Shown: in pieces, positions 7,499 to 61,355 of the stretch
Position numbering within the stretch: the first letter of the stretch is position 1
Layout: each line of letters opens with the position of its first letter
Assembly (NCBI GenBank): GCA_964019695.1
Contig: OZ026530.1
Location: forward strand, 28,346,108-28,410,107
Source: Loripinus fragilis
Lineage: Eukaryota; Mollusca; Bivalvia; Lucinida; Lucinidae
Length of the DNA stretch: 64,000 bases
Reading direction: 5' to 3'
Program-made: the position numbers and the translations under genes
The notes under the pieces: generated by a model
Seen by the model: the letters and a program-made list of their open reading frames with translations, nothing else
Databases searched by the model: none
Told to the model about the DNA's origin: nothing

Positions 7499-7531
7499 CA
7501 TTTTGCATAACAGTCATCTCTTGATCCATTG
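7499..7531 (-). CDS. Exon (33 nt) of the minus-strand micro-exon gene
   Basis: This is the last exon in this window of the phase-1 gene. On the minus strand the intron ends TTTCTTTTTATAG, and the exon begins CAATGGATCAAG and ends CAAAATG before GTATGTATAT. In phase 1 it reads (x)CA, then MDQEMTVMQN, then G. Its two leading bases join the G left by the 15-nt exon at 8850-8864 to give GCA (Ala). The same junction also works directly after the 117-nt exon (T+CA = Ser), so skipping of both 15-nt exons would keep the frame. The role is unknown. The gene continues beyond the left edge or ends in an exon I did not find. Confidence 0.5.
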
Positions 7532-7763
7532 CTATAAAAAGAAACAAATACAGAGTGAATACAGAGTGAATTACCCAGACAATGGTGTTTACAAAAGTTA
7601 AGCGTGGATAAATAAAAATTGAATTATGTTTGAGCATATGCTTTAATTAATTAAAGTTATTAAATATCTGCTGAAATGATGGTTTGATATGAAAGCGATA
7701 TTTGTATGTAGTTTAAAACCTTTACCTAATCAAGACGCCTTTTAACGCCTTTGCAACCAGAGC

Positions 7764-7811
7764 AGTCCCAGGTCAGGCAGCTTTTGTCAGGGCTGCCTGA
7801 TCAGGGTCTCC
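7764..7811. repeat. Short hairpin MITE of the 'ctgatcagggtc' family
   Basis: Inverted arms gtcccaggtcaggcagc and gctgcctgatcagggtc surround an 11-nt loop. It is one of about ten related hairpins in this window (15731, 16651, 18092, 36892, 41915, 42693, 54233 and others). Confidence 0.65.
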
Positions 7812-8346
7812 TATGTTTACTTATGGAAATATGATTAGATATGATCTTACACTAGTGTACCTGACAATTTATTTGTACAAACGTGAAATTATTCGTAGTG
7901 TGTAGAGCTTGGCATGGATATTCATGAAGGAAAGGGCTTATTTGATTTCTATGTACGTTGGAAGGGCACAAAACATGTTTCAACTGCATTATTCGCAATA
8001 CAAAATTGACACACCATCGGTTTATGAAGTTTTTCATCTATATCGAATCAGTCATTCCGAAAAAAAATGGTTGTCTCAATTGATTTTGTTTGTTTGTATT
8101 GTTGCTTTACGTCCCAGTCAAAAGCTATGGCCATTGCTGGACGGTCAGTTCACCTGACCACACTTTTCCTGGGCAAGCTTGAACAAGCGGTTAACCTGTA
8201 TTTCGTGCACATGCTTTCGCTTGTAACTGACAACAACCCTTCTTGAATGATTCAGCGGAAGGGAGGAGAATGACTTCAGAAATTATTTCATCATCAATCT
8301 CCACGAAAAAATGGGACCATTGAAGCAAACGTTGAGTCTAGAAACA

Positions 8347-8756
8347 GGTAGGTTCCAACACTGCTTAAACAGCCTGCACACCTGCCGCACAGTGCCCGGG
8401 AGGTAGGTTCGGACACCCCTTGATCAGCCTGCAGCCCTGCCCACAGTGTCCCAGAGGTAGGTTCTGGCACCACTTAAACAGCCTGCACCTCTGCCCCACA
8501 GTGCCCGGGAGGTAGATTTTGACACCGCTTAAACAGCCTGCACCCCTTCCATACAGTGCCCAGGAGGTAGGTTCCAACACCGCTTAAACAGCCTGCACCC
8601 CTGCCCCACAGTGCCAAGGAGGTAGGTTCTGACACCGCTTAAACAGTCTGCATCCCTGCCCCACAGTGCCCAGGAAGTAGGTTCCGACACCGCTTAAACA
8701 GCCTGCACCCCTGCCCCACAGTGCCATGGAGGTAGGATCTGACACGGCTTAAACAG
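8347..8756. repeat. 55-bp minisatellite, about 7.5 copies
   Basis: The unit runs roughly ggtaggttccgacaccgctt, aaacagcctgcacccctgcc, ccacagtgcccagga. Successive units start at about 8347, 8402, 8456, 8511, 8566, 8621, 8676 and 8731, and copies differ by a few substitutions. It is GC-richer than its surroundings. The open minus-strand frame across it follows the period and is not credible coding sequence. Confidence 0.95.
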
Positions 8757-8849
8757 CGTTTTAATGCGTTTTCAACGCGAATTCGACAAGGACAAATCCG
8801 CGATCGGTAGTGTAGATATCTCAGTTATGTAATAAATGTTAAATCTTAC

Positions 8850-8864
8850 CTTTAAATGTTGGTT
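8850..8864 (-). CDS. 15-nt micro-exon of the minus-strand gene
   Basis: Minus-strand context: ATATCTTTTACAG, then AACCAACATTTAAAG, then GTAAGATTTAAC. The acceptor has a pyrimidine tract and the donor is near consensus. In phase 1 it reads (C)AA CCA ACA TTT AAA G, giving Q-P-T-F-K. The leading AA needs a C from the upstream 15-nt exon. If spliced directly to the 117-nt exon, which ends in T, it would create TAA, so its use depends on the exon at 11220-11234. On its own a 15-nt exon is weak evidence. Support comes from agreement of length, phase and open frame with the rest of the chain. Confidence 0.45.
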
Positions 8865-8927
8865 CTGTAAAAGATATAGAAATACAGTAAATTATCAACT
8901 ACTAACATCCTGATAATTGTCAATTTG

Positions 8928-9717
8928 AGTTAAAAAGTAAAGAACTTCTAGGGATAAGGCGTATATTTTCCCTAGTTGAAATGATTACAAACACCAAATT
9001 TTCAAATTGCCCTAATGTTTTTGAAATTGGTGTAGTTCAGCAGTAAAATATGCATAGTAAGCAACAAAATACGTTTCAAAGCGATTCACCATTTACAATA
9101 CCGTGAAAACGTGCACTTTCTACTCCCACCCCTCATTTTACGTCTTTATACTGGGTGCCGTTTAGACCAGGCTTTGAGTTAATGCATTGCTAGTTATAAA
9201 AAAGTGAAAGTGCTAAGATGTTAAGGATAGAACTGCTCTTATTTTCCCAAACCTTACTGTATTCCTTCTGCGCATGCGTACGAAATACACCTAAAATTGT
9301 GACGTTTGTAATTGGAAAGATCAAAATTGCGTATTTCAGTTTATTTTTAGATGCTTTGCCCCCCTAGACCCAAGATGCCCTTTGGACAACGACATGTCGC
9401 TATAAACATTTACAACATATGTAAAGGGCATTTTGGGTCTAGGGGGGCAAAGCATCTAAAAATAAACTGAAAGACACCAATTTCATCTTTCTAATGACAA
9501 ACGACACAGTTTTAGGCGTATTTCGTACGCATGCGCAGTATTGTAAAATTAATGGTGAATCACTTTGAAACGTATTTTGTTGCCTGCTGTGCATATTTTA
9601 CTGCCAAACTACACCGATTTTAAAAACATTAGGGCAATTTGAAAATTTGGTGTTTGTCATCATGTCAACTAGGGAAAATATACGCCTTATCGCTAGAAGT
9701 TCTTTGTGGCTTTAACT
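8928..9717. mobile_element. Large foldback (inverted-repeat) element
   Basis: The left arm starts near agttaaaaagtaaagaacttctag and the right arm ends ctagaagttctttgtggctttaact. Arms match over several blocks, such as gccctaatgttttt, aaatacgtttcaaagcgattcacc and the centre-proximal gatgctttgcccccctagac. The left arm has about 160 bp missing from the right arm. The loop (about 9385-9420) is short, so the transcript would fold into a long hairpin. No coding frame is seen. Confidence 0.8.
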
Positions 9718-9825
9718 GTTTTGTATTTATTTTAACGTCACTGTCAACAGCTACAATGTATGTTCATGTCGAAACGGTCAGTTACATGTAACCTAACCAC
9801 ACTTTTCTTGGGCAAGCTTACTGTC

Positions 9826-10040
9826 CTGCCAGCCAAGAGGGACAGTGACGTCATGTTTTGTTAACTAAGTAATCAGGGACTTATAATCGATAGATCACAT
9901 GTGTATTAATACTATCCTTTGGATAGGATTAATACACAAGTGATCTATCGATTCGCGCTCGCGCAAGTGGAGTGTACAAGTTATTGTTTACTTAACAATT
10001 GTAAACAAAATACTACGTCACTGTCACTCTTGGTTGGCAC
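9826..10040. mobile_element. Palindromic MITE, about 215 bp
   Basis: Terminal arms tgccagccaagagggacagtg and cactgtcactcttggttggca are inverted. The centre is a near-perfect palindrome around tatcctttggatag, flanked by aatcgatagatcac and its complement. A half-copy with gtgacagtgacgtactactttg lies at about 43635-43725. Confidence 0.8.
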
Positions 10041-10050
10041 GAAAGTAGAT

Positions 10051-10320
10051 AAGAGTCCTTCAGCGTTATGCTGGCTATGTTGACATTCTTTATTTACAAT
10101 AATATTGCCAATAACAACGTTATTTTTAGAACAATATATGTATTTTATTATATGCACATACCAATCACAAGGAGATATGAGAGTCCTGCAGCGTTATACT
10201 GGCTATGTTGACATTCTGTATCTACAATAATGTTTACCAACAACTTACTGTTTTTAACAATACATGTACTTTATTATAATTAAAATGTTATATGCACATA
10301 CCAATCACAATGAGATATAA
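10051..10320. repeat. 138-bp tandem duplication
   Basis: Two head-to-tail copies start with gagtcct(t/g)cagcgttat at 10053 and 10191 and end with tgcacataccaatcacaa. Moderate divergence indicates an older duplication. Confidence 0.85.
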
Positions 10321-10400
10321 CTAGCATAGTGGATGAATCGCTTGTATACAGTCATGGAGGTTGCGAATTCGAACCCCGTCACCGTATCTCGTTTTTATAT
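10320..10400 (+). repeat. tRNA-like SINE head (degenerate)
   Basis: A box-A-like tagcatagtggatgaatcg is followed about 45 bp later by a box-B-like gcgaattcgaacccc. Stem pairing is poor, so this is a tRNA-derived repeat and not a tRNA gene. A second tRNA-like block on the minus strand lies at about 10640-10725, where GATAGCTCACTAGGTAGAG precedes TGTTCGAATCC. Confidence 0.45.
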
Positions 10401-11029
10401 ATTTATATTTTTATTTATGTATACAAATGTTTGAATATAATTCATAATTATTTCCTATCATTTAGGTTGCTGAATATCAAACGGTCCATATCCTATGGGT
10501 ATGCATGTTCATGTTTGCTAATGTTCCATATAAAGGACACTTTGTATAAATGTTAAAAACTGTTGTCCAAACATGATTAAAGGGTGCATATCAAACTAGT
10601 ATACAACAAACATGACGAAAAAGAAATTAAAGCATAGATTGGATTCGAACATGTGCATAATTAAAGAAAAAGAAAATATTTACTGCTGACGGAGACTCTA
10701 CCTAGTGAGCTATCCATAACTGACAACAAATAGTTTTCAGATTTAAATAGTTTTACCATTGATTGAACTCCGTGACCACAAGTTTAATTGATTATTGAAT
10801 TATGTAAGCAAATAGTGGAGATACTGATTAGATACCGCATTCTGCAGCGTCTGATCTGGATTGGCACTGTTTGTCCATGTCCCATAAAAGGAACGCTAGG
10901 CTTATATGGGTTAATGTAAGGAACTTAATGCCACATAAGTTAAGCAGCAGGTTACTTGTTACTGTTTGCTTGCTGGGCATTTTCTCACGTTCTTGCTGGG
11001 ATCTGCTGACTTTCTCAATGTTAAGTTTT

Positions 11030-11030
<1 letters not shown>

Positions 11031-11062
<32 letters not shown>
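11031..11062. repeat. Poly-A tract (32 nt)
   Basis: An uninterrupted A run with no recognisable retrotransposon body upstream. Confidence 0.95.
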
Positions 11063-11064
<2 letters not shown>

Positions 11065-11219
11065 TCAAGAACACTTTCAGTGTGTCAAATGGTTTAAATC
11101 CAGAACAGGACCGGTCCTGATCTGGTTTCAAACAGTTTACAAAGGTTATCAGCAAACAATAAAAGTCGCCGCTAGCAAGGAAAAAGTTAAAATTAATACT
11201 CATTACTTTCTCAACTTAC

Positions 11220-11234
11220 GACAAGCAGGGTACC
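11220..11234 (-). CDS. 15-nt micro-exon of the minus-strand gene
   Basis: Minus-strand context: CTTGTTTTTTCAG, then GGTACCCTGCTTGTC, then GTAAGTTGAG. Both splice sites are strong. In phase 1, T (from the 117-nt exon) + GG gives Trp, then Y-P-A-C, leaving C. That C with the next exon's AA gives Gln. The chain therefore reads W-Y-P-A-C-Q-P-T-F-K across two 15-nt exons. Without this exon, the downstream 15-nt exon would put a stop in frame. It contributes one Cys and two aromatic residues. The function is unknown. Confidence 0.5.
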
Positions 11235-11309
11235 CTGAAAAAACAAGAAAAAACATTTTGTTAACCTGTTTGCACTTCCTCTTGCAACAATTTATATCAT
11301 TTAGCTTAC

Positions 11310-11450
11310 TTACAATCAGGACTGCCTCAGCCAATTCCATGGAATTCCGTGGACTCAGACATTGGTAGAACATCGAGGATCTACTTTGATAACGTGACGC
11401 TGGCGTTACATAACGTGACGCTGACGTCAAAGAAACCATGCTATTAAAAT
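11310..11450. repeat. Dispersed repeat with gtgacgctgacgtca motifs, copy 1
   Basis: Shares cc(a/g)cggatgtacatcgaggatctac-like sequence and ttatataacgtgacgctgacgtca with 16190-16330, 26463-26600 and 28080-28200. No termini or coding frame were defined. Confidence 0.6.
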
Positions 11451-11511
11451 AACGTGATTGCAGCAAAACGAACGGTTTTAAAATAAGAAATAGATCAGCT
11501 ATAGCAGTGAA

Positions 11512-11638
11512 TTGTTGAGTAATAATTTACTGTTTGGAGGTCAGTTGTGTTGTAAAGAAGATCAAATCACGAGCGCGTAGCAAGAGTGATTTATCTCCAT
11601 AAAACTGACCCACAAACAGTGAATTATTACTCAACAAT
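11512..11638. mobile_element. Foldback MITE, about 127 bp
   Basis: Inverted arms ttgagtaataatttactgtt and aacagtgaattattactcaa enclose an inner stem aaatcac / gtgattt. No target duplication was identified. Confidence 0.7.
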
Positions 11639-12060
11639 ACACGCAACAGAGCTAATCTATTACGATTCTAACACACAATAAACGATGAAAACACATTTGA
11701 AGCATTCAGCTTCTTCCAACTTACCGCTATTGCACTGAGGAAATCCCACCAATAGTTGGACTGTGTCACATACGCTTTCATGTATTTGTAACGTCATTCA
11801 AGCATAAAAACGAAGTTACAACGTCTAACGTCATGACTGTCGTCATTTTGCAGCTCTACAAATGACGTCAGCTAGCGCGCGTTTTCCTCGCGCTTTCAAA
11901 ACTGTGTTTGATTAATCACGTTTGTTTAGCATTGACTCTATGGGCGAGGTGTGTTAGAATGAAGTTTAACATATTGCTGGGGAAGAGAAAGCTGATTGCT
12001 TTACTTCATTACTTTCTTGTTGTCTTGTGCCTGTCTGTATTCTGTGTCTCCCTCTCACGG

Positions 12061-12383
12061 TGCGGATCCAGAGGGGGTGGGGGACAGGGGGTCTGGGCCC
12101 CTCCTAAAAATCACAAAAATATATGGTTTTCAAGCAATACAGGTCCGGATACCCTGAAAAATCGCAAGTACCAAGCCAGCATTCAATGTTGGGTCAACAA
12201 CGGCACGCCAGCCGAACGCCATTTAATGGCGTTTCGCTGGCGGGATGATGATGGCCCGCTGATAGCGGTACTTGGATCCTCCTTCCTCTCATCAACTAAA
12301 AATCAAAACAAAAAACAAAAAAAAAAAAAAACGTTGTCAAAGTTGGACCCACTCTGACAAAACTTTCCGGATCCGCGCATGCT
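12061..12383 (+). mobile_element. GGATCC-ended MITE, copy 3, with target duplication
   Basis: The most complete copy. It starts tgcggatccagaggg and ends ggatccgcgcatgct. The direct repeat tctcacggtgc flanks it at 12053-12063 and 12384-12394, of which at least 8 bp would be a target-site duplication, the size produced by hAT-like transposases. Inside are an inverted block (gccatttaatggcg, ctggcggg / cccgctgat) and an A-rich run. It carries no transposase. Confidence 0.75.
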
Positions 12384-12549
12384 TCTCACGGTGCCTTTGG
12401 TAGTTTGTGGTCCGATACATTTCCTTGTCACATTGATTGTTGCATTTCCTAGTCATACTGACTTGTTTTTTGTAGTTCAGTTTTAACCTTGTTTTAAAGT
12501 AATAAGCCTTCCGGCATAAAAATAGATCCTACTGTAATTGATTATTTGA

Positions 12550-12819
12550 GCCCAAAATTACAATGCCTTCTTAAAGTGAAGTATATGTACAACCTTAGTT
12601 AAGTATTGGTTTTTGAAGATACGAAAAATAATGTTTCAAACGTCTGAAAATCAAATTTGTTTCAGGCATTCTGTAGATCATAATGACATCTTTGACCATA
12701 TGTACTGCCAAGAGCCTGGCAATTTACGAAACATTCAAAATTGTTGTGTTTAAATATCAATACTTTAGTTAACTAGGATAGTACTTAACTTTAAGGAGGC
12801 ATTGTAATTTTGGGCCTGG
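12550..12819. mobile_element. GGGCCC-ended MITE, copy 1
   Basis: Terminal inverted repeats gcccaaaattacaatgcctt and aaggaggcattgtaatttt surround about 200 bp that includes cgaaaaataatgtttcaaac. Further copies lie at 14216-14480, 14481-15611 (interrupted) and 38983-39239. A half-copy lies at about 12851-12900. Confidence 0.8.
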
Positions 12820-13257
12820 ATTTAGATCAAAGTTAGGATTAATTCTAAACCAGGGCCCAAAATTACCATGCTTCCTTAAAGTTAAGGATGACTTAAAGAC
12901 ATAAGCGGCTAATTCTCGTGCGCACCTTTCCTGCGTTGGGAAACAACTCAAGTTGGCCTGGGTCCTGTCTTTCAATCATTTATGAATTCGGATCAATACA
13001 GATTTCAAATACTCTTATTTCAGATCAATGTTCCGGCGTTATCTTGACAAAATGAAGTAACTAAAATGTGTCCGAAGTATCTATTTAGCATTTCATCAGT
13101 CTTAATCGTCTATTAGTAAGCACCAAAACAGATAAATAGATCAAAGAAAAACAAACTATGTACATAATATTCAAGCTTTGATCCTGATTACAAATAGGAA
13201 ATTGGCCGAGACTCAAATTGTATCTTCTACATGTACGGCTATTTTGAACCGCACACG

Positions 13258-13985
13258 ACCTGATGTCGTGGCCTAGTGTTTAGAATGTTGGCCTATGAAA
13301 CCAGAGACCCTGGCTCGATTCCCAGGCTGGGCACCTATTTTCAGTTTTTTTTCTTCTTCCCTTTTAGCATTTTAACGCTGAATTACTTCATAGAAAAGAG
13401 GCATCATCAAAATGACTGAAACGGCCAACTTTCAACTTTTTATATAGGATAATGCATGGAGGTGGGGTCATATTTGGCCCTTCAGAAAGATAATTAGTTC
13501 GGTGACCCCACATTTTTATTCTTTTTTTTCTTAAAGGTCTTATAATAGCCCATGTAATAAAAATAAATTTTTTAGATTTTCAACATCAAATTTCCTTATC
13601 TATAATTTATTCTAAAAACAACTTCCAAATTTCGACAAATTGCCAAAATAGATCATGCAGTATCTTGTCACAGCATGAATTAACAAATAAATTTGCATAT
13701 TTTCTAGAAGGTTTGAGGTGGGGAACAATAATTTAAAGTAAAAGAAAGAAGCTGTCTGAAGAGTTCAACTATTTTATCTTGATATTTAGGACTAATGTTA
13801 TGCTTTCATCTGTTTATAGATTTGGTCAAATGCTTAAAATTTAAATAAGAGATTATGAAGAACTAAGCACTGTGACATATCTTTTTGACTTCATAAATGG
13901 ATAGTCCATGCTAAAGCAAACTGTCTGCAAAGTATTGAACAGATTTCAACTTGGGGAGTATTTAGTAGCATATGTCCTTAAGTTA
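13258..13985 (+). mobile_element. tRNA-headed repeat, about 0.7 kb, copy 1
   Basis: The head resembles a tRNA (gtggcctagtgtttagaatg as box A, ggctcgattcccagg as box B). It is followed by tgggcacctatttt, a body with tttggccct...ggtgaccccacattttta, and an end at gtatttagtagcatatgtcc. The whole arrangement recurs at 31735-32462. The tRNA head indicates a SINE-type origin, though the body is unusually long. Confidence 0.65.
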
Positions 13986-14215
13986 AGTATTGATATTTCA
14001 ACATGTTACAATAAATGTGTAATGAATTGCCTATATTGGTTTAATACATTGCCAAGATCGGTGCAGTACGTATGGTCAAAGATATCATGCTGATCTACAG
14101 ATGAAGTGAAAACTATTTTGATTTTAATAAGTTTGAAAACGTTATTATTCGCATCCTAAAAATCAAAGCTTAACTTAAGTAATCAAAAACGTTCAGGAGG
14201 TATTGTAATTCCAGG

Positions 14216-14480
14216 CACAGGGCCCAGAATTACAATGCCCCCTTAAAGTTAAACAAGACTTAAGTTAAGTATTGATATTTCAACATGCTATATTAAGTGC
14301 TAAATAAACTGCCTGGATCGATGTGGTTTTTGTGGTCAAAGATATCATTGTGATCTTCAGAAAAAGTAAAACTATTTTGATTTAAATCAGTTTTAAACGT
14401 TATTTTTAGCATCCTGAAAAATCAATACTTAACTTAAGTCTTCCTTAACTCTCAGGAGGCATTGTAATTTCGGGCCCTGG
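14216..14480. mobile_element. GGGCCC-ended MITE, copy 2
   Basis: Starts cagggcccagaattacaatg and ends aggcattgtaatttcgggccctgg. An older end of the same family abuts it at about 14195-14217, so three copies lie almost end to end here. Confidence 0.75.
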
Positions 14481-15611
14481 GATTTTTCAGGATGCGAAAA
14501 ATGACGTTTCAAACTGATTAAAATCAAAATATTTTTTTTTCTGAAGATCACAATGGTATCTTTGACCACAAGTACTGCGTCGATCCAGGCAATTTATTTA
14601 GCATTTAATATAGCATGTCGATATATCAATACTTAACTTAAGTCTTGCTTAACTTTAAGGAGGCATTGCACGAGGGTCATCAAATAAATAGAGAGAATTA
14701 CCTTATAATATAAGAGTTTGTATCACTTTAACATCACAAATATAACCATAAGGTGGCATAACTTGTTGTGCATGAAACAACATATATAAAAATTTGACAG
14801 AATGTGATTTCGCTTGTTGCTTAGCAACGCAAACACGTACTTAAAGCGTACCTGGCCGGATGCCTTAAATTGGTTGCCATGGTTACTAGCATGTGCAGAT
14901 CAGTTCCAAAAAGCATATTTTCTATTAACTACAACATAAGGCAATTACTCTGTAAAATTCATTGACTTCTTATAATTAATGTCAAATTGACAGGCACATT
15001 TAGCATAAAAAAGTGACAAAAATGCAAAATTGTGGAACCAGTAATGGGGTATGGGTCATGAATTTGCCCTTGAATTATTGTTGGTTGGTGTATAAGTTTT
15101 TAATCACCCTAAAATTATTAAATATATTCTCTTTTTTAAAACAGTATCGTTAACAAACATGTATTCCATGTGACCATTGTTGCCTACCAACAGAAAAATA
15201 TAGACTTAACAAATAGTGAATTTTTCACAATTGTCTGGTTGCTAGTCAACCAAGACTAACTGGTACATGTTAATGACCATATTTTATATGAAACATTGAG
15301 AACAATTAAACTATAACAGATTTAAGGACAACCTATGGTCAGATAAATAATAGTAATTAAATGTCAAACTCTGTTTCTATTGCATTAGGTTTTTGTTGGT
15401 GGAAAATCCGGCCAGGCTAGCTTTAGTATCACTTTTTCGTTCTAGGCAACAAGCGACCTCACTTTCCAACATTATTTTGGATATGCTCTTGCATGCCCAA
15501 CATGTTATGCCATCCAATGATTACATTTGCCATGTTCTAATGGTACAAACTCTTGCATTATAAGAAAATTACCTCTATTTATTGGATGACCCTCGTAATT
15601 CCGGACCCTGG
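14481..15611. mobile_element. GGGCCC-ended MITE, copy 3, split by another element
   Basis: The left part (14481-14668) ends aaggaggcattg, and the right part resumes at 15596 with taattccggaccctgg. The two halves join seamlessly around the insertion at 14671-15595. Its own left terminus is missing. Confidence 0.7.
14671..15595. mobile_element. Mariner-type non-autonomous element (925 bp)
   Basis: Long terminal inverted repeats begin cgagggtcatcaaataaatag on the left, and the right end (reverse complement) begins cgagggtcatccaataaatag. Similarity extends into the element through the ataagagtttgta blocks. It sits at a TA in the GGGCCC MITE, with TA at the right (15596-15597) and a mutated CA at the left (14669-14670). 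Size, TIR start and TA target fit the Tc1/mariner superfamily. I see no transposase frame. Confidence 0.75.
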
Positions 15612-15730
15612 TCAGCAATAACTTTTGTTAAGCTAATCTTTCCCTGACACTTATACAATTAGTGTAATTGACAGTTTCTGACGAAGGTATGTACTTCTAC
15701 TAACCTATACAGGAACAACTGGCAGCAAGG

Positions 15731-15794
15731 CAAACAGTGTAGATCCAGATCAGAAGCCACAGAGCGCAGCTTCTGATCAGGGTCTCCACTGTTG
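15731..15794. repeat. Hairpin MITE ('ctgatcagggtc' family)
   Basis: Inverted arms caaacagtgtagatccagat and cagaagc / gcttctgatcagggtctccac form a compact stem. Not coding. Confidence 0.75.
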
Positions 15795-16006
15795 TTTTTT
15801 TTTACAAATTATTCTATTAAGATATAAATAAAATATAAAAATACCATCCAAAGACCCTTAAAACGGAATAAACTGGTCGAATGAATAAAAGTGGGACTTC
15901 CATTTGGCTTAAATGGGTTATAATATATTTGAAAATGTGTTGACAAGCTGGTTAAATCTTAAGCAAACAAAGAGTAAACAAGTCGATGTGAATGAAAAAT
16001 GCTTAC

Positions 16007-16123
16007 AATTGTCCGAATTTGCTAACGCCCTCTCCTTCAGCTTGTCATAGTTGACTTCAACCGTGGCCATTTCCTGGAAATACCTATCCCATGACCAAAA
16101 GTTGTCCGAGTCCTTATTGTAAC
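16007..16123 (-). CDS. 117-nt exon of the minus-strand micro-exon gene
   Basis: One of the best-supported exons. The minus-strand acceptor is GATTACTTTCAG and the exon starts GTTACAATAAGG. It ends TCGGACAATT before GTAAGCATTTTT. In phase 1 (A+GT = Ser) it is open for 38 codons and reads YNKDSDNFWSWDRYFQEMAT and on to LKERALANSDN. It is rich in aromatic and acidic residues, with a likely helix in VEVNYDKLKERALA. I see no signal peptide and no family that I recognise. Its final T completes TGG with the exon at 11220-11234. The next exon upstream, at 16848-16901, is about 0.7 kb away, the shortest intron between confident exons here. Confidence 0.72.
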
Positions 16124-16847: not shown

Positions 16848-16901
16848 TTTTGTTAGCATGGTTTAAAACTTCTTCCACTTCTTCCTCTACGTTTGTGAAA
16901 A
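16848..16901 (-). CDS. 54-nt exon of the minus-strand micro-exon gene
   Basis: The minus-strand acceptor TTTATTTCAG precedes TTTTCACAAACG. The exon ends GCTAACAAAA before GTACGTATTT. In phase 1 it reads FTNVEEEVEEVLNHANK, an acidic segment likely to be helical. The junction with the last live 18-nt exon (A+TT) gives Ile, and its trailing A gives AGT (Ser) with the 117-nt exon. Length 54 is a multiple of three and equals that of the exon at 52928-52981. Confidence 0.7.
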
Positions 16902-24899: not shown

Positions 24900-25330
24900 G
24901 AAAACGTTAGGGTTAGCCATATGCATGCGTGACGTTAAAAGCGTCATTTCATAACGTTTCCAGAAAATCTGCAAACCACTAGTGGTTTATCGATTTTAAT
25001 GCATGGCGTTACTTTTCTCCCAGACGCGACGTCAAATAATTATATGCAGGAAACAATGCATATACATAGAAGCAATATTATTTTGTGTCGAATATTGTAC
25101 AACATGGATCATAAGCCCAGAAAGGCTTTTATTTCGACAATCAATAGAAAACAAATATTTGTAAAAAAAACACACGTATCACAGCATGTTACATATTTAA
25201 GCAGTCAATACATACTTGTGACGTTGGTACAGCATGAAAAAAAAGATTAAGAACACTATCTAAATATACACACTATAAACATTTTATGGCGGATGGCGTT
25301 TCAAACAATAAGTAGTATAATTTGGTTGGG
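24900..25330. repeat. Duplicated micro-exon block, copy A
   Basis: Matches 27890-28075 (copy B) through tatcacagcatg, catacttgtg(t/a)cgttg and tatacacac, and matches 28850-28960 (copy C) through aaaccactagnggtttatcnattt and cccagacgcga. In copy B the flanking sequence is contiguous. In copy A the minisatellite and mariner relic separate its two halves, so copy A received later insertions. Confidence 0.7.
25216..25233 (-). pseudogene. Dead copy of the 18-nt micro-exon
   Basis: Minus-strand GCTGTACCAACGTCACAA is followed by GTATGTATTG, so the donor is intact. The acceptor CAG of the sister exon at 27944-27961 is CAT here. The phase-1 reading remains open as C-T-N-V-T, with Cys in the same place as in the live copies. 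The loss of AG should prevent its use. Confidence 0.55.
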
Positions 25331-27769: not shown

Positions 27770-28350
27770 GTGCCCCATGTATTTTTGAATTTATTTAACT
27801 CGTGAAAAGGCAATAAAATGATCAGCAAACCACGCATTTTTATCTCTTTTTAAAAACTCATTTAATTATTTCAATACGGTAAGATCTAGTTTTTTTAAAA
27901 AAAAGAGTATCACAGCATGCACATTAAAGCAGTAAATACATACTTGTGTCGTTGTTGCAGTCTGAAAATAGAGTAAGAACACGATTTGAATATACACACA
28001 TTAACAATTTTAATGCGGTATAAAACAACAGTATGAAACAATAAGTGTGTTTTAATTTGGGGACAGTTCAGTATTTAATAGGAACTACCTCAGCCTATTC
28101 CGCAAAATTCTGTGAAATCAGACCACGGATCAACTTTGATAACAAGAGTGATAACGTGACGCTGGCGTCAAGAAACCATGTTTGCACAATAACAAGTGTG
28201 ATTGCAGCAAAACAAACGAATATAAATGAATTTTATATTTTTTCAATAAAATATCGCTATAACGATATTTTATTGTAAAATACATAAACTTCATTTATTC
28301 TATTGATTAAACTTTTCGGATAATCAGAAAAATCGATTTTAATAGAGCTG
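27770..28350. repeat. Duplicated micro-exon block, copy B
   Basis: Contiguous version of the sequence that in copy A is split by a minisatellite and a mariner relic. It contains the live 18-nt exon at 27944-27961. Confidence 0.65.
27944..27961 (-). CDS. 18-nt micro-exon of the minus-strand gene (C-N-N-D-T)
   Basis: Minus-strand context: ACTCTATTTTCAG, then ACTGCAACAACGACACAA, then GTATGTATTT. Both sites are good. In phase 1, G+AC gives Asp, then C-N-N-D-T, leaving A for the next exon (A+TT = Ile). It is a paralogue of the exons at 28976-28993 and 43355-43372, with Cys at the same position. It adds a six-residue, Cys-containing module that can be skipped or included without a frame change. 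Confidence 0.62.
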
Positions 28351-28975: not shown

Positions 28976-28993
28976 CTGTTTTGCCTTCGCAAT
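28976..28993 (-). CDS. 18-nt micro-exon of the minus-strand gene (C-E-G-K-T)
   Basis: Minus-strand context: CTACATTTCTTTTCAG, then ATTGCGAAGGCAAAACAG, then GTATGTTTAT. In phase 1, G+AT gives Asp, then C-E-G-K-T, leaving G. Only about 20 bp of original intron, which includes the pyrimidine tract, separates it from the 3' end of the LINE at 29014. Confidence 0.62.
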
Positions 28994-43354: not shown

Positions 43355-43372
43355 CGACTATTTCGTTGCACT
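43355..43372 (-). CDS. 18-nt micro-exon of the minus-strand gene (C-N-E-I-V)
   Basis: Minus-strand context: AATTTTATTTTCAG, then AGTGCAACGAAATAGTCG, then GTAAGTTTTTTT. Near-consensus donor and good pyrimidine tract. In phase 1, G+AG gives Glu, then C-N-E-I-V, leaving G, so Cys sits as in the two sister micro-exons. The donor lies 30 bp from the end of the 8.2-kb composite transposon, which therefore lies in the following intron. Confidence 0.62.
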
Positions 43373-52927: not shown

Positions 52928-52981
52928 CGTTAGAGAGTTCCAGCATAAACCGAAGAATGACTTTCTGTTGTATAAGTATTT
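52928..52981 (-). CDS. 54-nt exon of the minus-strand micro-exon gene
   Basis: Minus-strand context: GTTCTATTGCAG, then AAATACTTATAC...TCTCTAACG, then GTAAGATAAAA. In phase 1, G+AA gives Glu, then ILIQQKVILRFMLELSN, leaving G. The peptide is amphipathic and probably helical, and too short and charged to be a membrane segment. It follows the 273-nt exon and precedes the Cys micro-exons. Confidence 0.68.
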
Positions 52982-53195
52982 CTGCAATAGAACAAAATGC
53001 AATTAAAATATTGAGGACCATGACATACCATTGATCTATAAACAAGAACACAATTGCTGCAAAATGCGGCAAAATGCACGGCCCAAAATACAGTATGCTA
53101 TTTGATTGTTCTGATTACTGTCACAAACACGACGTTGCAAGTTTGAATGTACACATGTCATGCATTCGATAACATTTCCTTTATAAATTCCACCT

Positions 53196-53362
53196 AGGGG
53201 CAGATCCAGGAGTTCTTGATAGGAGGTTCAAACTTACAAAGGGGGTTCGATTTGTTTATTTCAACTGTTTATTTATTATTTTTTCTGAAAATTCGCCATG
53301 AAAATGAAATAATTTTGTCTCAAAGGGGGGTTCGAGCAAGCTCCCTCTGGATCTGTCACTGC
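53196..53362 (+). mobile_element. Short GGATCC-like MITE
   Basis: From ggcagatccaggagttc to ctccctctggatctgtcactgcc, inverted at the ends, 167 bp. It holds two ggggttcga blocks. Related to, but distinct from, the 0.3-kb family. Confidence 0.6.
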
Positions 53363-53369
53363 CATCATA

Positions 53370-54232
53370 GAAAAAAACGACACATATCACAGCATACAGT
53401 CACTGATTACAAAAAGCATAGGGAAAATGGAAATGATTTTTTTTATCAATCAGTTAAACATTTGGTTATGGAGCTCAAAAGAACCGTCTCAATAATTTGA
53501 CGCCCATGATGACTTGTTTTCTCTTGCACATTGCACATGCCACTGTTGAAAATAATTCATCGTCTGTGCGCTGCTCTCAAATGGTATGAATAAGTACCAA
53601 AAACATTCCGAACGCGAAAAGATGTATTCATACGAAAGAAACATTGTACAGGAAATTACATTTGAGCATACGGTAAAAAGATTCTGCCATAAAGAAACGA
53701 TTCTGTCGCGATAAAAAATAACTATTTTTGCTGGTTAGCACAACAGAGGTTGTGTAGAACACAAGAGTTTGTTATGGGCCAAGATGCCCAGTTACCGCTA
53801 GAAAGTGCAATTTCGTTCTTAAGCTTTTCCTTACCACCCGTATTCACGGCTTTGCATAAAAATAGAATAAAAACATTCCTTCAAATCCGAAAATATAACG
53901 ATAAAATAACCATTTGTTTTGCTAAAAACGTGCACCGTATTTATTAACTCTTATGCAATGAATTTATTCATTAGCACCCATTTTGGCCATTACAGAATAA
54001 ACAACAAATTCAACTTTTAATAATTGTTTTACGTCAAAAACAAAACAGCCAAACCGGAAGGAAAATTCGGAGATGAAAGACACAGCAACAATTTGAAAAC
54101 CACCAAAGTAAGCACGGCGTGAACGCTATGCTTATAATGGTAAAATTATTATCCCTTCGACTGCTACGCTGCATATAAAAGTGTCTTCTGTTGCATCTAG
54201 CTACTAAAAACATACTAATTGCAGTAATCGGA
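53370..54232. other. Intronic stretch, nothing firm
   Basis: cacatatcacagcata (about 53382) echoes the tatcacagcatg of the duplicated micro-exon blocks, but no splice pair is preserved. No credible coding frame. Confidence 0.35.
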
Positions 54233-54340
54233 CACACTGTGTGGTTCCAGACCAGACTGTTCCTCTATTGAGAGACAGTCTGATCAGGGTCCACACGACT
54301 TGCTAGAGAAGCAGTCTGATCTGGGGCCACACTTTTTGCT
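54233..54340. repeat. Hairpin MITE, double version
   Basis: cacactgtgtggttccagac, then gagacagtctgatcagggtc, then gcagtctgatctggggccac: two overlapping hairpin units of the common family. Confidence 0.7.
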
Positions 54341-54440
54341 ACAAAGGCGTTTAGACAGTCATCTGAGGGTGATCCAACGGTATTGTCCCATCCACGAGAC
54401 GTGAATCTGAACGCCAGATCAAATTACTATTATAATAATA

Positions 54441-55755
54441 CGAGGGGCATTTGGAAAGTTCTAAGCATGGCATCATAACTCCACAATGCGTTGATAAAAT
54501 GCCATCAAATAATACATTTTTGGAAACTAGAATTCTACGGCTACTTGATGGTTTATTTTTTGTCGAAAAATCACTTGGCGTGCTCAAAATGAGTAGGTTT
54601 GATACACTGGCAAAATATTGGTAAAAAAAACGAAGGGAAATTGGAGACCTTATATACGATTATGGTTTGACAAATCAACGATTCGGTGCCAACTTAATTT
54701 TTATTAGATTATATTATGCGATCACTGCTTGCACGACTTACACCTCTATATTTGGAAAATTTGACTAATAGAGAAATGGTAAACTTTCAAAAATTGAACT
54801 TTTTCGATTTTTCTTAATAATTTTACTATAAATTGTATCGCTACAGGAGCATGAAAAATGCCTATTGAGTATATGTTTTGCTTTATTTGTAAAGAGCAAT
54901 GAATAAAAAATAATAAGTTGTGCAATAAGTGTGGCTTGTTTAGTTCTGTATTCAAGAAAAACTATTCCTAATTCCACTACCCCCACTTTTCAATAAGTGG
55001 GTTGGGTAACTTAACCACTCACATTTTATCGATGGCACAAGAACTTCTCATGGTATCGCGTTAACCATCACACAATTGATTGATTTGTACTCTCGAGGTA
55101 GTCTTATTTTTTGTTTGCCACCGTTTTCAATTGAAATGAGCTAGAACGTCAACTCATAGCTAAACTTACTCTCCCCCATGGGAAGATTATAAGAGTTATC
55201 TTCCCTTTGTTCTGGTTTACAAAATTTCTTTTGGTTTCAATACAAAGAGCATAAATTGTGCTTGACAAAAATTCCAACGTACAGCATTTTTTTCAAACTA
55301 CTTTCGTTTATATTTTCAAAATATGTGCATTGTGATATGCGAGTTTAAGTCGAAATAATTAGCGAATTGCTTTGCTTTCTAGATGGTTTTGGTATTCATG
55401 TTCGGGTATTTAGTTATTAGAAACATCGCACTCGGTCATCAATTGTATAATAACTGTACCAGAGTGTGGCCTACCAAATGGTAAAAATATCTAGTTTAAT
55501 CAATTATGGGTAATGTTCTGCACATATTTCAAAAGGTAAAATGTTATAATTTCCACTGAAATTTTGCGTTTTCCAGTATACAAACAGTACATGTATTCAC
55601 AATAATATTTTTCGTGTCTTCATTATAATATCCTTATGAAATTTGTTTCATAACATAGAGGAAGGATAGCTCTTTAAAATGATACCAAACATGATATGGT
55701 TTGTAAATCGGTTACTGAGATAAAAACATGCAAAGAACTTTCCAAATGCCCCTCG
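54441..55755. mobile_element. 1.3-kb mariner-size TIR element
   Basis: Both ends carry cgaggggcatttggaaagtt (right end inverted), and the match continues as c(t/-)aagcatg / catgcaaag. TA flanks each end (54439-54440 and 55756-55757). Length, TIR and target suit a mariner element, but I cannot recognise a transposase frame inside, so it is non-autonomous or decayed. Confidence 0.78.
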
Positions 55756-56099
55756 TATGTTTATTGTATACCCCTTTCTGAAATTATTCTGATTTATAAC
55801 TTGTTTTGGTCTTTAATAGCGATAGTTTGCGAGGACGTTTGTCATTACGGTATGTTTCTTGCCGTTACGTCAGCATTGGTTCCATGCTTGAAATTTAATT
55901 TACGTAACGTCGCAACAAAAACAGGTAATCGACGCTAGCCTCGTTTTATAGGATAGCGATACGAAATCAGAGAGCCTAAGTTCGTTGGTCCGGCTTTCTG
56001 TATCAGATAGTCAGAAAACAGTTGTTGAGTTAGCTGCAAACAAACTATATGGGAAAGTACATTGCTCAAAAATGGTCAATGTTTTCTATGAGAATTCTG

Positions 56100-57810
56100 A
56101 AAAATCACAAAGCTGTAGGTTTCCTTACAACACTCTGGTTTGTACCCCCTGGAAAATCACAAAGCTATAGGTGTCCTTACAACAGCCTGGTCCGTACCCC
56201 CTGGAAAATCAAAAAGCTATAGGTTTCCTTACAACACCCTAGTCTGGACCCCCTGAAAAATCACAAAGTTAAAGGTTTCCTTACTATACTCTGGTCGGTA
56301 CTCCTGGAAAATCAGAAAGCTATAGGTTCCCTTACCATACTCTGGTCTGCAACCCATAGAAAACCATAAAACGATAGATTTCTTACAACACGCTATTTTA
56401 TACTCCCTGGGTAATCACAAAGCTGAAGGTTTCCTTTCAACACTCTTGTCGGTATCCCTTAGAAAATCATAAAACAATGGATTCCTTACAACACTCTGTT
56501 CTATACCCCCTGGGTAATCACAAAGCTATAGGTATCCTTACAACACCCTAGTCGGCAACCCCTGGAAAATCACAAAGCTAAAGGTTTCCTTACCAAACTC
56601 TGGTCTGTTCCCACTGAAAAATACAAAAAAACTATAGGTTTCCTCACAATACGTTGGTTGTACCCCTTGGAAAAATCACAACGCTATAGGTTTCCTTACA
56701 GCACTTTGTCCGTATCCCCTGGAAACTCACAAAGCTATAGGTTTCCATACAACACTCTGGTCTGTACCCCCTGGAAAATCACAAAGCTATAGGTTTCCTT
56801 ACAGCACTCTGTCAATATCCCCTGGAAAATCACAAAGTTATAGGTTTTCTTACGACACCCTAGTCTGGACACTCTGAAAAATCACAAAACTATTGGTTTC
56901 CTTACAACACTCTGGTCTGTACCCCCTGGAGAATCACTAAGCTATAGGTTTCCTTACCATACTCTGGTCTGTACCCCTAGAAAATCAGAAAGCTATAGGT
57001 TTCCTTACAACACTCTGGTCTGCACCCCCTGGAATATCATAAAACGATAGATTTCTTGCAACACTCTGTTTTATACCCCTTGGAAAATCACAAATCTATA
57101 GGTTTCCTTACATCACCCTAGTCCGTACCACCTGGAAAATCACAAAGCTATAGGTTACCTTACAACACCCGAGTCCGTACCCCCTGAGAAATCACAAAGA
57201 TATAGGTTTCCTTACCATGCTCTGGCCTGTACCCCTGGAAAATCAGAAAACTATAGGTTGCCTTACCATACTCTGGTCTGTACCCCCTGGAAAATCACAA
57301 AGCTATAGGTTTCATTGCAACACTCTGGTCTGCAACCCCTGGAAAATTATAAAACGATACATTTCTTACAACACTATGTTTTATATCCCCTGGAAAATCT
57401 CAAAGCTAAAGGTTTCCTTTCAACACTCTAGTCTGTACCCCTTGATAAATCATAAAACGATGGATTTCTCACAACACTCTGCTCAGTACTACCGGGGTAA
57501 TCACAAATCTAATGGTATCCTTACAACAATCTAGTCGATACCCCCTGGAAAATCAGAAAGCTATAGGTTTTCTTACCATACTCTGGTCTGTACCCACTGA
57601 AAAATCACAAAGCTATAGGTTTCCATGCAACACTGTGGTCTGTACCCTTGGAAAATTACAAAGCTATGGGTTTCTCTACAACAATTTGGGTTGCACCCCC
57701 TGGAAAATTGCAAAGGTACATGTTTCTTTACACCATTCTGGTCTGTACCCCCTCAGAAAACCACAAAGCTATAGGTTTCCTTACCCCCTGGAAAATTATA
57801 AAGCTATTTA
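56100..57810. repeat. 52-bp satellite, about 33 copies
   Basis: The unit reads roughly aggtttccttacaacactct, ggtctgtaccccctggaaaa, tcacaaagctat. Starts at 56118, 56170 and 56222 give the period. Substitutions and a few short indels separate the copies. The half ccccctggaaaatcacaaa is the same as in the GGATCC MITE (around 745), and the array passes directly into the right part of that MITE at 57808. Long frames across it are artefacts. Confidence 0.95.
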
Positions 57811-57977
57811 AATTACGTTTCGGTGGCGGGCCAATGATGGTCCAATTTTAGTTGTATGCTGGGTTTTTTATAGGAATATTGGTTCGGACCCCCTCGCGAA
57901 GCAATCTGATCCCTATGTAAATGAAATTGATGACTTGTCACTGAAGGACTAATACTCTTCTAGATCCGAACATGCCT
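57808..57977 (+). mobile_element. Right end of a GGATCC-type MITE, fused to the satellite
   Basis: cggtggcgggccaatgatgg corresponds to the ctggcgggatgatgatggcc block of copy 3. The end tctagatccgaacatgcc is a diverged terminus. No left end was found before 56100. Confidence 0.6.
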
Positions 57978-57999
57978 AGAGGATTCACTTTAAACTCAC

Positions 58000-58272
58000 C
58001 ATCGTAATAGTCTGATGTTTTTGCATCTGGACCTAGCTTCTCCATAACATGGTCAAAATATACCACCCAAGGCTCATCCTCATACCACTCCGTGCCGTCA
58101 CGAAGTTCCTGGCGTTTAGTACGTTGATGTTCACCATGACTTTGCAGTTGTCTAGTGTTGTGCGTTGGTTGTTCACGAGTCTGTTGTTGTAGTTGCTGTT
58201 GTCCTTCAGCAGTCTGTTGTTGTTGTGCCTGTTGTTCTTGGTCAGTATTCAAGTGACGTTTCAAAATATCCA
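58000..58272 (-). CDS. 273-nt exon of the minus-strand micro-exon gene (Gln-rich)
   Basis: The largest exon. Minus-strand acceptor TGTACCATTGTAG, then TGGATATTTTG. It ends GACTATTACGATG before GTGAGTTTAAAG. In phase 1 (G+TG = Val) it is open for 90 codons: DILKRHLNTDQ, a Gln-rich tract (15 Gln in residues 11-30), a basic part QRTKRQELRD, then EWYEDEPWVVYFDHVMEKLG and PDAKTSDYYD. The Gln tract uses both CAA and CAG, so it is not a recent pure CAG expansion. The C-terminal part is acidic and aromatic, as in the 117-nt exon. I recognise no domain. The open frame continues past the donor, but splice logic favours the exon end given. Confidence 0.7.
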
Positions 58273-58363
58273 CTACAATGGTACACCCAAGTTATGACGT
58301 AATCAAGTAGGCACATGACGTCGAAATTAACGTTACGTTGTTTGACGTCATGAGTCTGATGGG

Positions 58364-58541
58364 AACCCAGCAGGCTCAAAACCTTAAAACAACGTTGTAT
58401 GATGTTGTTTTGACGTAATGTGCCTGCAGGGTAGCAACGTTTATTGAGCTAACAAATGACGTCAAACACGTCATGTCAACGTCGATGTGACGTCATTACG
58501 TTGATAAGACGTTGTTTTAACGTTTTGTGTCTGTGGGGTAT
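58364..58541. mobile_element. MITE with TGACGTCA-rich interior
   Basis: Ends acccagcaggctcaaaacct and cgttttgtgtctgtggggt are inverted, and each runs into aaaacaacgtt or its complement. The interior and left flank hold several TGACGTCA-type octamers and near matches (58318, 58344, 58457, 58489). It lies about 90 bp upstream of the 273-nt exon's acceptor in gene direction. Confidence 0.65.
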
Positions 58542-58685
58542 GCGATAAATAAAATGATAAGTATTATAAGATAATCATTTGGGGTATAATTGCGTGGAGT
58601 CTTTAATCATATAACGTCGCGTCTGAGTGAAGTAAGGTGAATGACCTTACAAGAATACATGAGATTTTAGCCAGGCCTCACGGAA

Positions 58686-58881
58686 ATAAAAAACTTTTTT
58701 CATGCTCAACTCAACTGAACATGGAATTTGTCCTGCTCATAAATGTTAAAATGCCATCAAGCAGGATAAATACAACGTCTGAGAGTTTGAAAGCAAGAAA
58801 AGTTTTTATTTTTCAGCGTTTTAGTTTTATGAGCAGTTGAAATTTCGTGCTCACTTTAGTTGAGCATGAACAAAGTTTTAT
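58686..58881. mobile_element. Foldback MITE, ttcatgctcaactcaact arms
   Basis: aacttttttcatgctcaact is inverted as agttgagcatgaacaaagtt, 0.2 kb apart. Confidence 0.7.
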
Positions 58882-59149
58882 AACCTCGGGGCCTGGTTTA
58901 GAGATTCTTTTCTTGCACAACGGATAAGGATATCTGAGATTTTACCCTGGGATAGAAAATCTTATTTTACCCATGCTATCTTACCCAGGCTGTCACGTGA
59001 GGGCTTCATACATTGGTTGTCAAGTGACGTCATTGTTATGTTAAAATGACGTCATCATTTTAAATTGCTTCTTAGCTTATTCAGGGACTTCTGGAAGCTA
59101 ATTTTATAGTAAAACCAGTGGTGAGCAAGAAACAGAATCCTTTATTCGT

Positions 59150-59265
59150 GTGAGGGTTGGATAGAAAAATCAGTCCCTCGGGATCATCGTTTGTCACCAC
59201 TCGGCAAGCCTCGTGATGCCAAACGGTGATCCTCGGGACGGATTTTTCTATCCTACCCTCACACT
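59150..59265. repeat. Long hairpin around caccactcggcaagcctcgtg
   Basis: Arms gtgtgagggttggatagaaa, atcagtccctcgggatcatc and the complementary cctcgggacggatttttcta, cctaccctcacac fold into a stem of about 50 bp. A decayed relative is at about 60885-60970 (gttgccaaacggttatcacc). Confidence 0.8.
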
Positions 59266-59299
59266 AATGATAGATTCTTATAATCTTACCCATGTGTAT

Positions 59300-60880
59300 T
59301 TTACTCAGACTGTCACGTGTAGACTACACATACATTGGTAATTTCGTATTTTTGAATGAAAAGAATAAAAGAGAATAAACTGACTGTAATGAGCACGAGC
59401 GGTGGTGAACGTACAGACGGCGTGCACAGTATTGGCGTACAAAACGTATCGTCGAATTGTAACGTCGCGACGCTAATTTCTTTCTTCTTCTCCTTATATT
59501 TAGCTAGATGTCTTGCTTCTGGAGACTGTCATTCGCTGGTAAAATATATGAAAACCATTTTCTAGCTTTCAAACATCAATAAATTCTATTTCATACACGT
59601 CATAATCAGTATTTCTAACTTAGTGTTCACGCATAAACAACAGAACTGAGAACGGCAGCTTATTCTCAAATGCCTCGTTTGACGTTTCTTTGTTTAACGT
59701 CATTTTTACTGCCGGTAACAAAATTTAAGACTGGGGTTAATGTTCACATTTTCTTTATTTTTCGGCGGATAAACTTCATATACCGCATTTTAAGTGAGCA
59801 AGCAAAGTACATTGTGGAGATATAAATTTTTAGTGAGTTTCATTGTCAACATTAAAGCTATGCTAAAATTTCAAGAGTATGTGTATTTATTTTAATGAAA
59901 ATTGTGTTTTGGTAACAAATTTTAAGACTTGGGGTTTTGTTAAACATTTTTAAATGGAAAGCGGCAAGGCAAATATTTTTCGATTAACTTTCACAACGGA
60001 AAAAGTACATTTTTAACAAACAAATATTTTGTCAATAAAACGCCATCAAGATTACAAAATTACTTACCGAAGAGACCATGCCTGTATTTTTCGCGCGTTT
60101 TTTGTAACAAGTTACAGATATTATTTTTCAAAATTTAACTTTCTGAGGCGTCGTTGTAGAGAAATAAACAACAAACTGGATATGACGTTGATCGGTGACG
60201 TTTCAGGTTTGACGTAGACTAAATCCAGTAATAATCGGCGTCAAAATGCTGTTGAAATACGCATTCGCGTATGCCTACCACAGCGCTATTGTTACAGAGT
60301 TACAGACGTTTTACTCCCAAATTTTGAGTTCTTGGGCTCCCTTTTAACTGTTTTGATAAACAAAAACTAAGAATCAATAAACTCTGAACAAGGCAAACGT
60401 ACACCTCTAGTTTTGAAACAAAAAAAAATGACCAGAATATCAAAATTCGGTTCCTGTAAATAGAAAAAATGCAAAACCCCGTTTTGTACGCCAACACTGT
60501 GCGCGACGTCAGATTAATCAGTATCCGTTGCCCATGTTGGCAGAAAGGAATTTGTGGAAAGCAAATTGAACGGACAGAATTAATCACACAGATTTAATGC
60601 ATGTAGTACACAGGCGGGTCATGAAACATTTTGATACCAAGTCTATTAAATATAAATGTTATTGGTATTATTTCGATTAATTTGCATATTTTTCTGTTTT
60701 ACATAGATTTTGCGATTTTCGACAGAGGTCTATGATTTATATCCTCCTAGCAACCTCGTCACCCTTTTGCATACTAGTAGCTGGACAATGCTAAAATAAA
60801 TAAGTATGCAAAATTTGATCCAAATATATTATGTGGTTCAAGAGTTATAATCATTCCTCTAATTGACACGATGGACGGGC
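59300..60880. other. Intronic stretch, nothing firm
   Basis: Two stretches share aacaaa(a/t)ttttaagact(t)ggggtt (about 59715 and 59910). At 60064 a strong minus-strand donor (GTAAGTAATT) follows a 14-nt interval from a possible acceptor, but the length breaks the phase pattern. No supported gene. Confidence 0.35.
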
Positions 60881-61029
60881 TCACACAGTGATATAGTGCA
60901 CACCATAATTTGTGTGAGGTTGCCAAACGGTTATCACCGGGAGAGTTTTTTTCTCTATCCCATCCACAAACTCATGATACTTTTAATTGCATTAAACCTT
61001 TGAAGATCAGAATCCCCTAAACGGGTGTC

Positions 61030-61150
61030 TTTGATGCGTGCGAACAGCAAAGGCGCAGATCAGCCTGCACATAAGGCTTAGTCTGATCAACGCTTTGTCG
61101 ATCACTATTCGGAAAGTTTAGGCACGCAAAATTTCAGTTTTTTAACCCCG
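61030..61150. repeat. MITE fragment with cagatcagcctgc hairpin
   Basis: gcgaacagcaaaggcgcagatcag and gtctgatcaacgctttg resemble 43430-43502. Confidence 0.6.
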
Positions 61151-61286
61151 GATTTTAACATTTCTCTGTCATTTAGCAGTTTGGTTTTTGTCAGGCTTTC
61201 TTCGTTGGAAAACCCCGTGGAAAGGTTTTCTGGCAAAATAACACAAACAAATAACTAGAGCATAAGCACTTAAAATTCTTAATTAC

Positions 61287-61355
61287 CCAACGTTTTGAGT
61301 TCATCCACCACACTCGGCCCCTCGTGATTTTTCTTTGTCACGTCAAAGTCCCTTC
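61287..61355 (-). CDS. 69-nt exon of the minus-strand micro-exon gene
   Basis: Minus-strand context: ACGTATTTCTACAG, then GAAGGGACTTTG...AAAACGTTGG, then GTAATTAAGA. In phase 1 it reads RDFDVTKKNHEGPSVVDELK-TL, leaving G, which with TG of the 273-nt exon gives Val (K-T-L-V-D-I-L). The joined junction looks like one continuous amphipathic helix, which supports the splice. It is the most upstream exon found. The gene must begin beyond the right edge or in an exon I missed in 61.4-64 kb. The donor's fourth to sixth bases (ATT) are weaker than average. Confidence 0.65.

Follow-up and report, generated by a model that had tools for sequence, protein, structure and literature searches.

A candidate tandem pair of genes built from symmetric phase-1 microexons, probably for a small secreted protein, in the bivalve Loripinus fragilis

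Genes that assemble secreted proteins from symmetric microexons have been described, as far as the excerpts of the sources cited here go, in schistosomes and in aphids and their kin, both host-dwelling. The bicycle genes of aphids, phylloxerids and coccids have internal exons that almost all start at codon position 2; one aphid carries 476 of them, with about 17 exons on average, and some bicycle homologues are reported without a clear CYC motif (PMC9168663, excerpt). In the micro-exon genes (MEGs) of Schistosoma the bulk of the coding sequence lies in very small symmetric exons (PMC4350168, excerpt), 15 bp being the commonest exon length and alternative splicing being reported (PMC10526429 and PMC4350168, excerpts), and a hydrophobic motif, FL..F......W, follows their signal peptide (PMC10526429, excerpt). 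Here we describe a locus in a 64,000-nt stretch of Loripinus fragilis DNA, hereafter the window (GCA_964019695.1, contig OZ026530.1, 28,346,108-28,410,107, forward strand), where sequence comparison points, with high probability, to a tandem gene pair for a small secreted protein, each gene consisting of a signal exon, a 55-nt exon, eleven symmetric phase-1 exons and a 62-nt last exon. No description of microexon genes of such layout in molluscs was found in the literature searched; the alternative oxidase of an oyster reportedly has a duplicated exon (PMC5589949).

The initial annotation of the window had proposed eleven exons, picked for their phase and length, as a gene in which every exon is symmetric and of phase 1. 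All eleven were located by script, each through a sequence unique on the window's minus strand, with AG before, GT after, a length divisible by three and one phase throughout; joined, they give 227 open codons, and the junction codons (GTG, GAA, GAG, GAT, GAC, ATT, AGT, TGG, CAA and GCA) were as noted there. In gene order these minus-strand exons, all of phase 1-1, are E1 (61287..61355, 69 nt), E2 (58000..58272, 273 nt, a Gln-rich portion followed by WYEDEPWVVYFDHVMEKLG), E3 (52928..52981, 54 nt), the 18-nt exons m18a (43355..43372, ECNEIV), m18b (28976..28993, DCEGKT) and m18c (27944..27961, DCNNDT), E7 (16848..16901, 54 nt), E8 (16007..16123, 117 nt), the 15-nt exons m15a (11220..11234, YPAC) and m15b (8850..8864, PTFK) and E11 (7499..7531, 33 nt, MDQEMTVMQN). 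Short exons of this kind could simply be AG..GT stretches left open at random, and they do arise easily by chance: in 264 kb of this sequence one strand has 568 and the other 640 further 18-nt stretches with AG..GT borders and an open phase 1, so that any one case carries little weight. An independent test was therefore sought.

A search of the genome (1,987,113,829 bases in 685 contigs) with the E2 peptide gave a second match 53 kb off on the same strand. Counterparts of all eleven exons were found around it, on the same strand and in the same order and phase, and they are assigned to an upstream gene (gene 2), the downstream gene, which lies mostly inside the window, being gene 1; both are on the minus strand. 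Coordinates above 64000 carry the window numbering on upstream, into the 100 kb that was taken either side of the window. The counterparts are E1' (114931-114860, 72 nt, 64% identity over 22 aa, E 2e-4), E2' (111629-111393, 237 nt, E 3e-13), E3' (109906-109853, 54 nt, 38/54 nt identical), m18a' (109402-109385, DCNEKA), m18b' (108615-108598, DCKGKE) and m18c' (107771-107754, ECSNEI), each of 18 nt and each matching at 13/18 nt, E7' (102910-102857, 54 nt, 33/54 nt), E8' (101533-101426, 108 nt, found by blastp, E 3e-5), m15a' (99209-99195, 15 nt, YPVC, 11/15 nt), m15b' (97013-96999, 15 nt, FTIE) and E11' (89915-89883, 33 nt, MDKEMSDMHR, 26/33 nt). Eight of the eleven pairs are equal in length, and the three unequal ones, E1, E2 and E8, differ by 3, 36 and 9 nt, all multiples of three.

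The two genes, spaced 19,033 bp apart, are diverged, with an identical residue at 100 of 212 aligned codons and NG86 estimates of 0.42 for dN and 0.96 for dS. Over nine equal-length exons (the eight above and the 55-nt exon) 197 of 280 nt are identical, about 70%, against 30-37% in the flanking introns, a level close to background when these are taken together (96/315 at 26-60 nt upstream and 118/315 at 11-45 nt downstream). Genome searches with the peptides of E2 and of either gene returned at E <= 0.003 this pair only among the best candidates, which alone are scored, so that match counts are lower bounds; the weaker matches elsewhere among those candidates amounted to none of two for E2, two of eight for gene 1 (E 4.4 and 9.4) and one of seven for gene 2 (E 1.3, with stops).

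A chance control was applied to the eight equal-length exons, the unequal E1, E2 and E8 having been found by tblastn or blastp and standing outside it. The best equal-length AG..GT stretch open in phase 1 in the matching gene 2 interval was compared with the gene 1 peptide, and 500 Markov simulations were run for each. In seven of the eight cases the counterpart was the top-scoring candidate in its interval, with a score reached by none of the 500 simulations for E3, m18b, m18c, m15a and E11 and by two each for m18a and E7. The remaining exon, m15b, whose peptide does not rise above chance, agrees with random origin. Eleven counterparts in order in a paralogue, seven of eight equal-length exons at scores reached in only 0-2 of 500 simulations, and exons 70% identical beside introns at 30-37% all stand against that explanation, which we regard as highly improbable and which, on this comparison, is refuted for the exon set as a whole. 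Since a diverged adjacent copy has the same exon order, the series counts as real, and at the level of sequence the exon set of gene 1 is confirmed as genuine by its neighbour.

Splice strength was assessed by ranking short candidates on site strength alone, frame ignored (n = 176 for gene 1, where the candidates exclude a tandem array at 56.1-57.8 kb, and n = 93 for gene 2). Several of the smallest exons came out at the top: in gene 1 the 55-nt exon ranked 1, m15a 2, m15b 3 and m18b 4, with m18c at 15, E7 at 26 and m18a at 28, and in gene 2 m15b' ranked 1, m18a' 2, m15a' 3 and the 55-nt exon 7, with E7' at 32 and m18c' at 37. The ranks of m18c, E7, m18a, E7' and m18c' are low. What speaks for m15b is confined to this strength and to its equal length and order. 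A TGC motif upstream is a mark of neural microexons; within 50 nt upstream of the exons tested here it followed no pattern, being absent before m18a, m18b, m18c, m15b, E11 and m18a' and present before the other six.

The scan beyond both edges that the initial annotation had recommended added three exons to each gene, all of them non-symmetric. With repeats masked and cut-offs relaxed, a 55-nt exon that starts in phase 0 and ends in phase 1 was found in both genes (68805-68751 and 118949-118895, minus strand). Upstream of it lies a signal exon, in gene 1 at 70694-70641 and in gene 2 at 120291-120229 (both minus strand), carrying an ATG and a hydrophobic stretch, MNQPLILFALIGIVAAYP and MNRLLVLVVLTILIGIVVAYP, respectively, and ending in phase 0; this pair was the best of seven, with a score of 46 against 35 for the runner-up. 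At the other end, a low-copy DNA match (73% over 84 bp) to the stretch following E11' led to E12 (6660..6721, minus strand, 62 nt with a TGA stop, RDTCMQLNKRTMWSPEALT), which was missing from the original list and has a 62-nt counterpart in gene 2 (89789-89728, minus strand), borders and stop being read in both genes. E12 is the probable last exon and the least certain of all, because its acceptors are weak, the pair is aligned with an 8-nt gap and the C-termini diverge. An earlier pass for 5' and 3' exons at strict cut-offs had given a lone last-exon pair, which looked repeat-derived, and no others; and in the ten E1-E11 introns of both genes no further pair of conserved phase-1 exons was found at the cut-offs used.

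With these ends each gene is modelled with 14 coding exons, the first two of gene 1 lying beyond the window, and has a complete frame from ATG to stop: 855 nt (284 aa) over 64,035 bp of genomic DNA for gene 1 and 822 nt (273 aa) over 30,564 bp for gene 2, both protein lengths including the putative signal. The statement that every exon is symmetric and of phase 1 therefore holds for the internal E1-E11 and fails for the signal exon, the 55-nt exon and the last exon at 6721-6660. We take the locus to comprise two separate genes, not a single one repeated internally, because both a signal exon and a 55-nt exon starting in phase 0 are present in each, and because E11' ends in phase 1.

Several observations weigh against parts of this model. 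The splice-score matrices are a general consensus untrained on Loripinus fragilis, and they score the gene 1 acceptors of E2 (1.1) and E8 (2.2) as weak, as they do those of E12 and its counterpart (-2.5 and 2.1), a pair already marked by the gap and the diverging C-termini. m15b ranked only fourth in the chance control, at a score reached by 432 of 500 simulations, is identical to m15b' at 7/15 nt and has no peptide support. As an exception among the flanks, the intron directly upstream of m15a is well conserved (26/35), and the conservation of m15a does not stand out against it. Finally, when public proteins were searched with the joined peptide, two homologous open reading frames (ORFs) turned up on other contigs (source label 'ena'), P0002 and P0003, matching 41% of the query at identities of 71% and 70%. 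Their similarity falls wholly on E2 as far as the exons are concerned, and it continues in the window sequence past the E2 donor for about 14 residues in P0003 and about 9 in P0002. A retained intron after E2 ending in a stop, or a longer E2, is possible from this sequence; gene 2 diverges soon beyond its E2' donor, and the similarity past the donor may be that of intron DNA, given close relatives. A further protein search with an E2 alignment returned nothing beyond P0001-P0003, viral and prokaryote contigs gave 600 and 109 pattern matches and no relative by tblastn, and Rfam at gathering cut-offs had no match in the window.

The product is probably secreted, since the N-terminus is its sole strongly hydrophobic part: judged from hydropathy alone (mean over 11 residues), it reaches 3.2 in gene 1 and 3.6 in gene 2, with values of at most 1.3 elsewhere. 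The initial annotation had not recognised the protein; the products gave no Pfam match at the curated cut-off and no match in a sequence search of the PDB, the sub-threshold Pfam matches being DUF1493 (E 0.017-0.027), DUF5327 (E 0.68), CdaS_N (E 0.002-0.003) and DUF1373 (E 0.015). Cysteines stand at 170, 176, 182, 248 and 269 in gene 1 and at 162, 168, 174 and 237 in gene 2, the first four of gene 1 being conserved in gene 2 and carried one each on m18a, m18b, m18c and m15a.

The three 18-nt exons most likely descend from one 1-1 microexon by duplication, because [D/E]C forms the first two residues in all six m18 exons of the two genes and in only 17 of 1208 further 18-nt stretches (AG..GT borders, open in phase 1) taken from both strands. 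The intron that follows m18c holds a decayed m18c duplicate (25216..25232, minus strand), in which the gtatgt donor is kept and the acceptor AG is lost; it sits in a stretch, 25346-25129, that aligns over 225 columns with the m18c region, 28077-27866, at 72% identity. The [D/E]-C-x-x-x-x hexapeptides of these exons would have arisen by such duplication, and the uniform phase would have been retained since the frame survives the duplication, loss or skipping of an exon only where that exon is 1-1. Strong splice sites would aid the recognition of exons of 15 and 18 nt, which are too short for normal exon definition.

The initial annotation had also stated that exons could be skipped or kept without shifting the frame, apart from a case at 8850. 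Counting from the 55-nt exon, 78 forward junctions are possible, and 76 of them stay free of stops in each gene. The two exceptions in gene 1 are E8 to m15b (TAA) and E8 to E12 (TGA), the former being created with 8864-8850 when 11234-11220 alone is skipped; those in gene 2 are E8 to E12 and m15a to E12 (both TGA). Since these differ, the stop on skipping m15a is peculiar to gene 1. The layout of the genes thus permits wide exon skipping, as read from the sequence. Each cysteine microexon gained, lost or skipped would add or remove one short module with its single cysteine, and the disulfide options would presumably shift accordingly.

Whether the genes use this freedom is a different matter, and the prospect that at least one of these exons is skipped in normal use falls, in our judgement, slightly short of even. 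Secreted proteins tend to use phase-1 introns, and all exons might always be joined, giving a fixed cysteine pairing, with the shared phase a relic of exon duplication and of that habit. To constitutive splicing of this kind we give an even chance: several of the smallest exons have very strong splice sites, four cysteines are kept in both genes and gene 1 acquires a stop if m15a alone is skipped, and strong sites together with conserved cysteines favour constant inclusion as much as choice. Nothing direct argues against constitutive splicing, the 76 open junctions out of 78 per gene being permissive and mostly a consequence of phase.

The introns of gene 1 contain several further elements. 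A repeat of about 120-270 bp occurs in four copies of the same orientation (11482-11314, 16339-16190, 28201-28077 and 26735-26467), and for three of them the distance from their end to the next acceptor downstream (of m15a, E8 and m18c) is about 67-116 bp; it is either a mobile element or a duplicated part of an intron. In the E2-E3 intron a 52-bp unit is repeated in tandem about 33 times (56097-57784); many of the units have acceptor-like and donor-like sites 19-20 nt apart, so that the array looks like a series of microexons whose length is wrong. A reverse-transcriptase ORF of 766 codons lies on the same strand in the m18a-m18b intron (31549-29252), and a fragment of a ZSWIM1-3 RNaseH-like domain (35683-35165, E 5e-16) adjoins CGAAAAGAC-type arrays at 35.2-36.3 kb; others like them are found at 42.8-43.3 kb, directly downstream of m18a. 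Between m15b and E11 lies a 55-bp tandem repeat of 7.5 copies (8346-8757). Outside the pair, 16 kb upstream, an ORF with a C1q domain (L010, 137077-136532) has a cerebellin-1 fusion as its best match among solved structures (E 1.5e-28).

Secreted modular proteins are known for class 1-1 exons, symmetric phase-1 exons that follow the signal peptide and by whose duplication the proteins grow. The Loripinus genes share with them the symmetric phase-1 exons behind a signal peptide and the duplication of exons, and differ in the unit: a classical module is a whole domain, whereas the unit here is an 18-nt exon with one cysteine.

The likeness to MEGs proposed by the initial annotation stands as a likeness of layout, namely symmetric phase-1 exons behind a signal-peptide-like first exon, and does not extend to the coding share in very small exons that defines MEGs. 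The shared features are a signal peptide (predicted here from hydropathy), very short symmetric exons and long introns (PMC10526429 and PMC4350168, excerpts). In MEGs very small symmetric exons make up the majority of the coding sequence (PMC4350168, excerpt), whereas here those of at most 36 nt account for 13.7% and those of at most 81 nt for 34.4%; the motif FL..F......W was absent from both products in a pattern search, and no common motif was found. That the pair belongs to a true flatworm-type MEG family, through contamination or shared descent, would agree with the leading signal peptide, the symmetric microexons including 15-nt ones and the long introns. It is contradicted by the share of 13.7%, by the absence of the post-signal motif as given in the excerpt of PMC10526429 and by the embedding of the gene in a contig of 72,209,172 bases within a 2.0-Gb genome, and we consider it extremely improbable. 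Homology to MEGs was not asserted in the initial annotation, and the comparison turned up none.

With the bicycle genes, as portrayed in the excerpt of PMC9168663, the pair shares many small internal exons of phase 1, an N-terminal signal, the lack of known homology and cysteine-bearing units, the number of bicycle units following protein and exon length. Of the 12 internal exons of each gene here, 11 begin at codon position 2. The differences are as follows: scored with the printed coefficients of the published gene-structure classifier (PMC9168663, excerpt), the two genes reach p = 0.0001 and 0.002 against a cut-off of 0.72, a pattern search found CYC in neither product, and in place of the 476 genes of about 17 exons given in the excerpt there is one tandem pair of 14 exons each, with E2 and E8 large.

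It is conceivable, if rather unlikely on present comparisons, that the symmetric-microexon design for secreted proteins originated independently here and that splicing, by taking in or leaving out cysteines singly, sets how many disulfides form and how they pair. An additional case unrelated to the earlier ones, in a genome of 2.0 Gb where a paralogue checks almost all of the exons, would point to repeated origin of the design, probably through duplication of 1-1 microexons. One-cysteine exons as a combinatorial switch, and the recognition of 15-18-nt exons between introns of up to 14 kb, can now be tested, and splice strength together with a tandem paralogue offers a way of finding such genes without transcripts. 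By the tests run, the pair would be a member neither of the bicycle genes nor of the MEGs, and its layout appears to work as theirs does.

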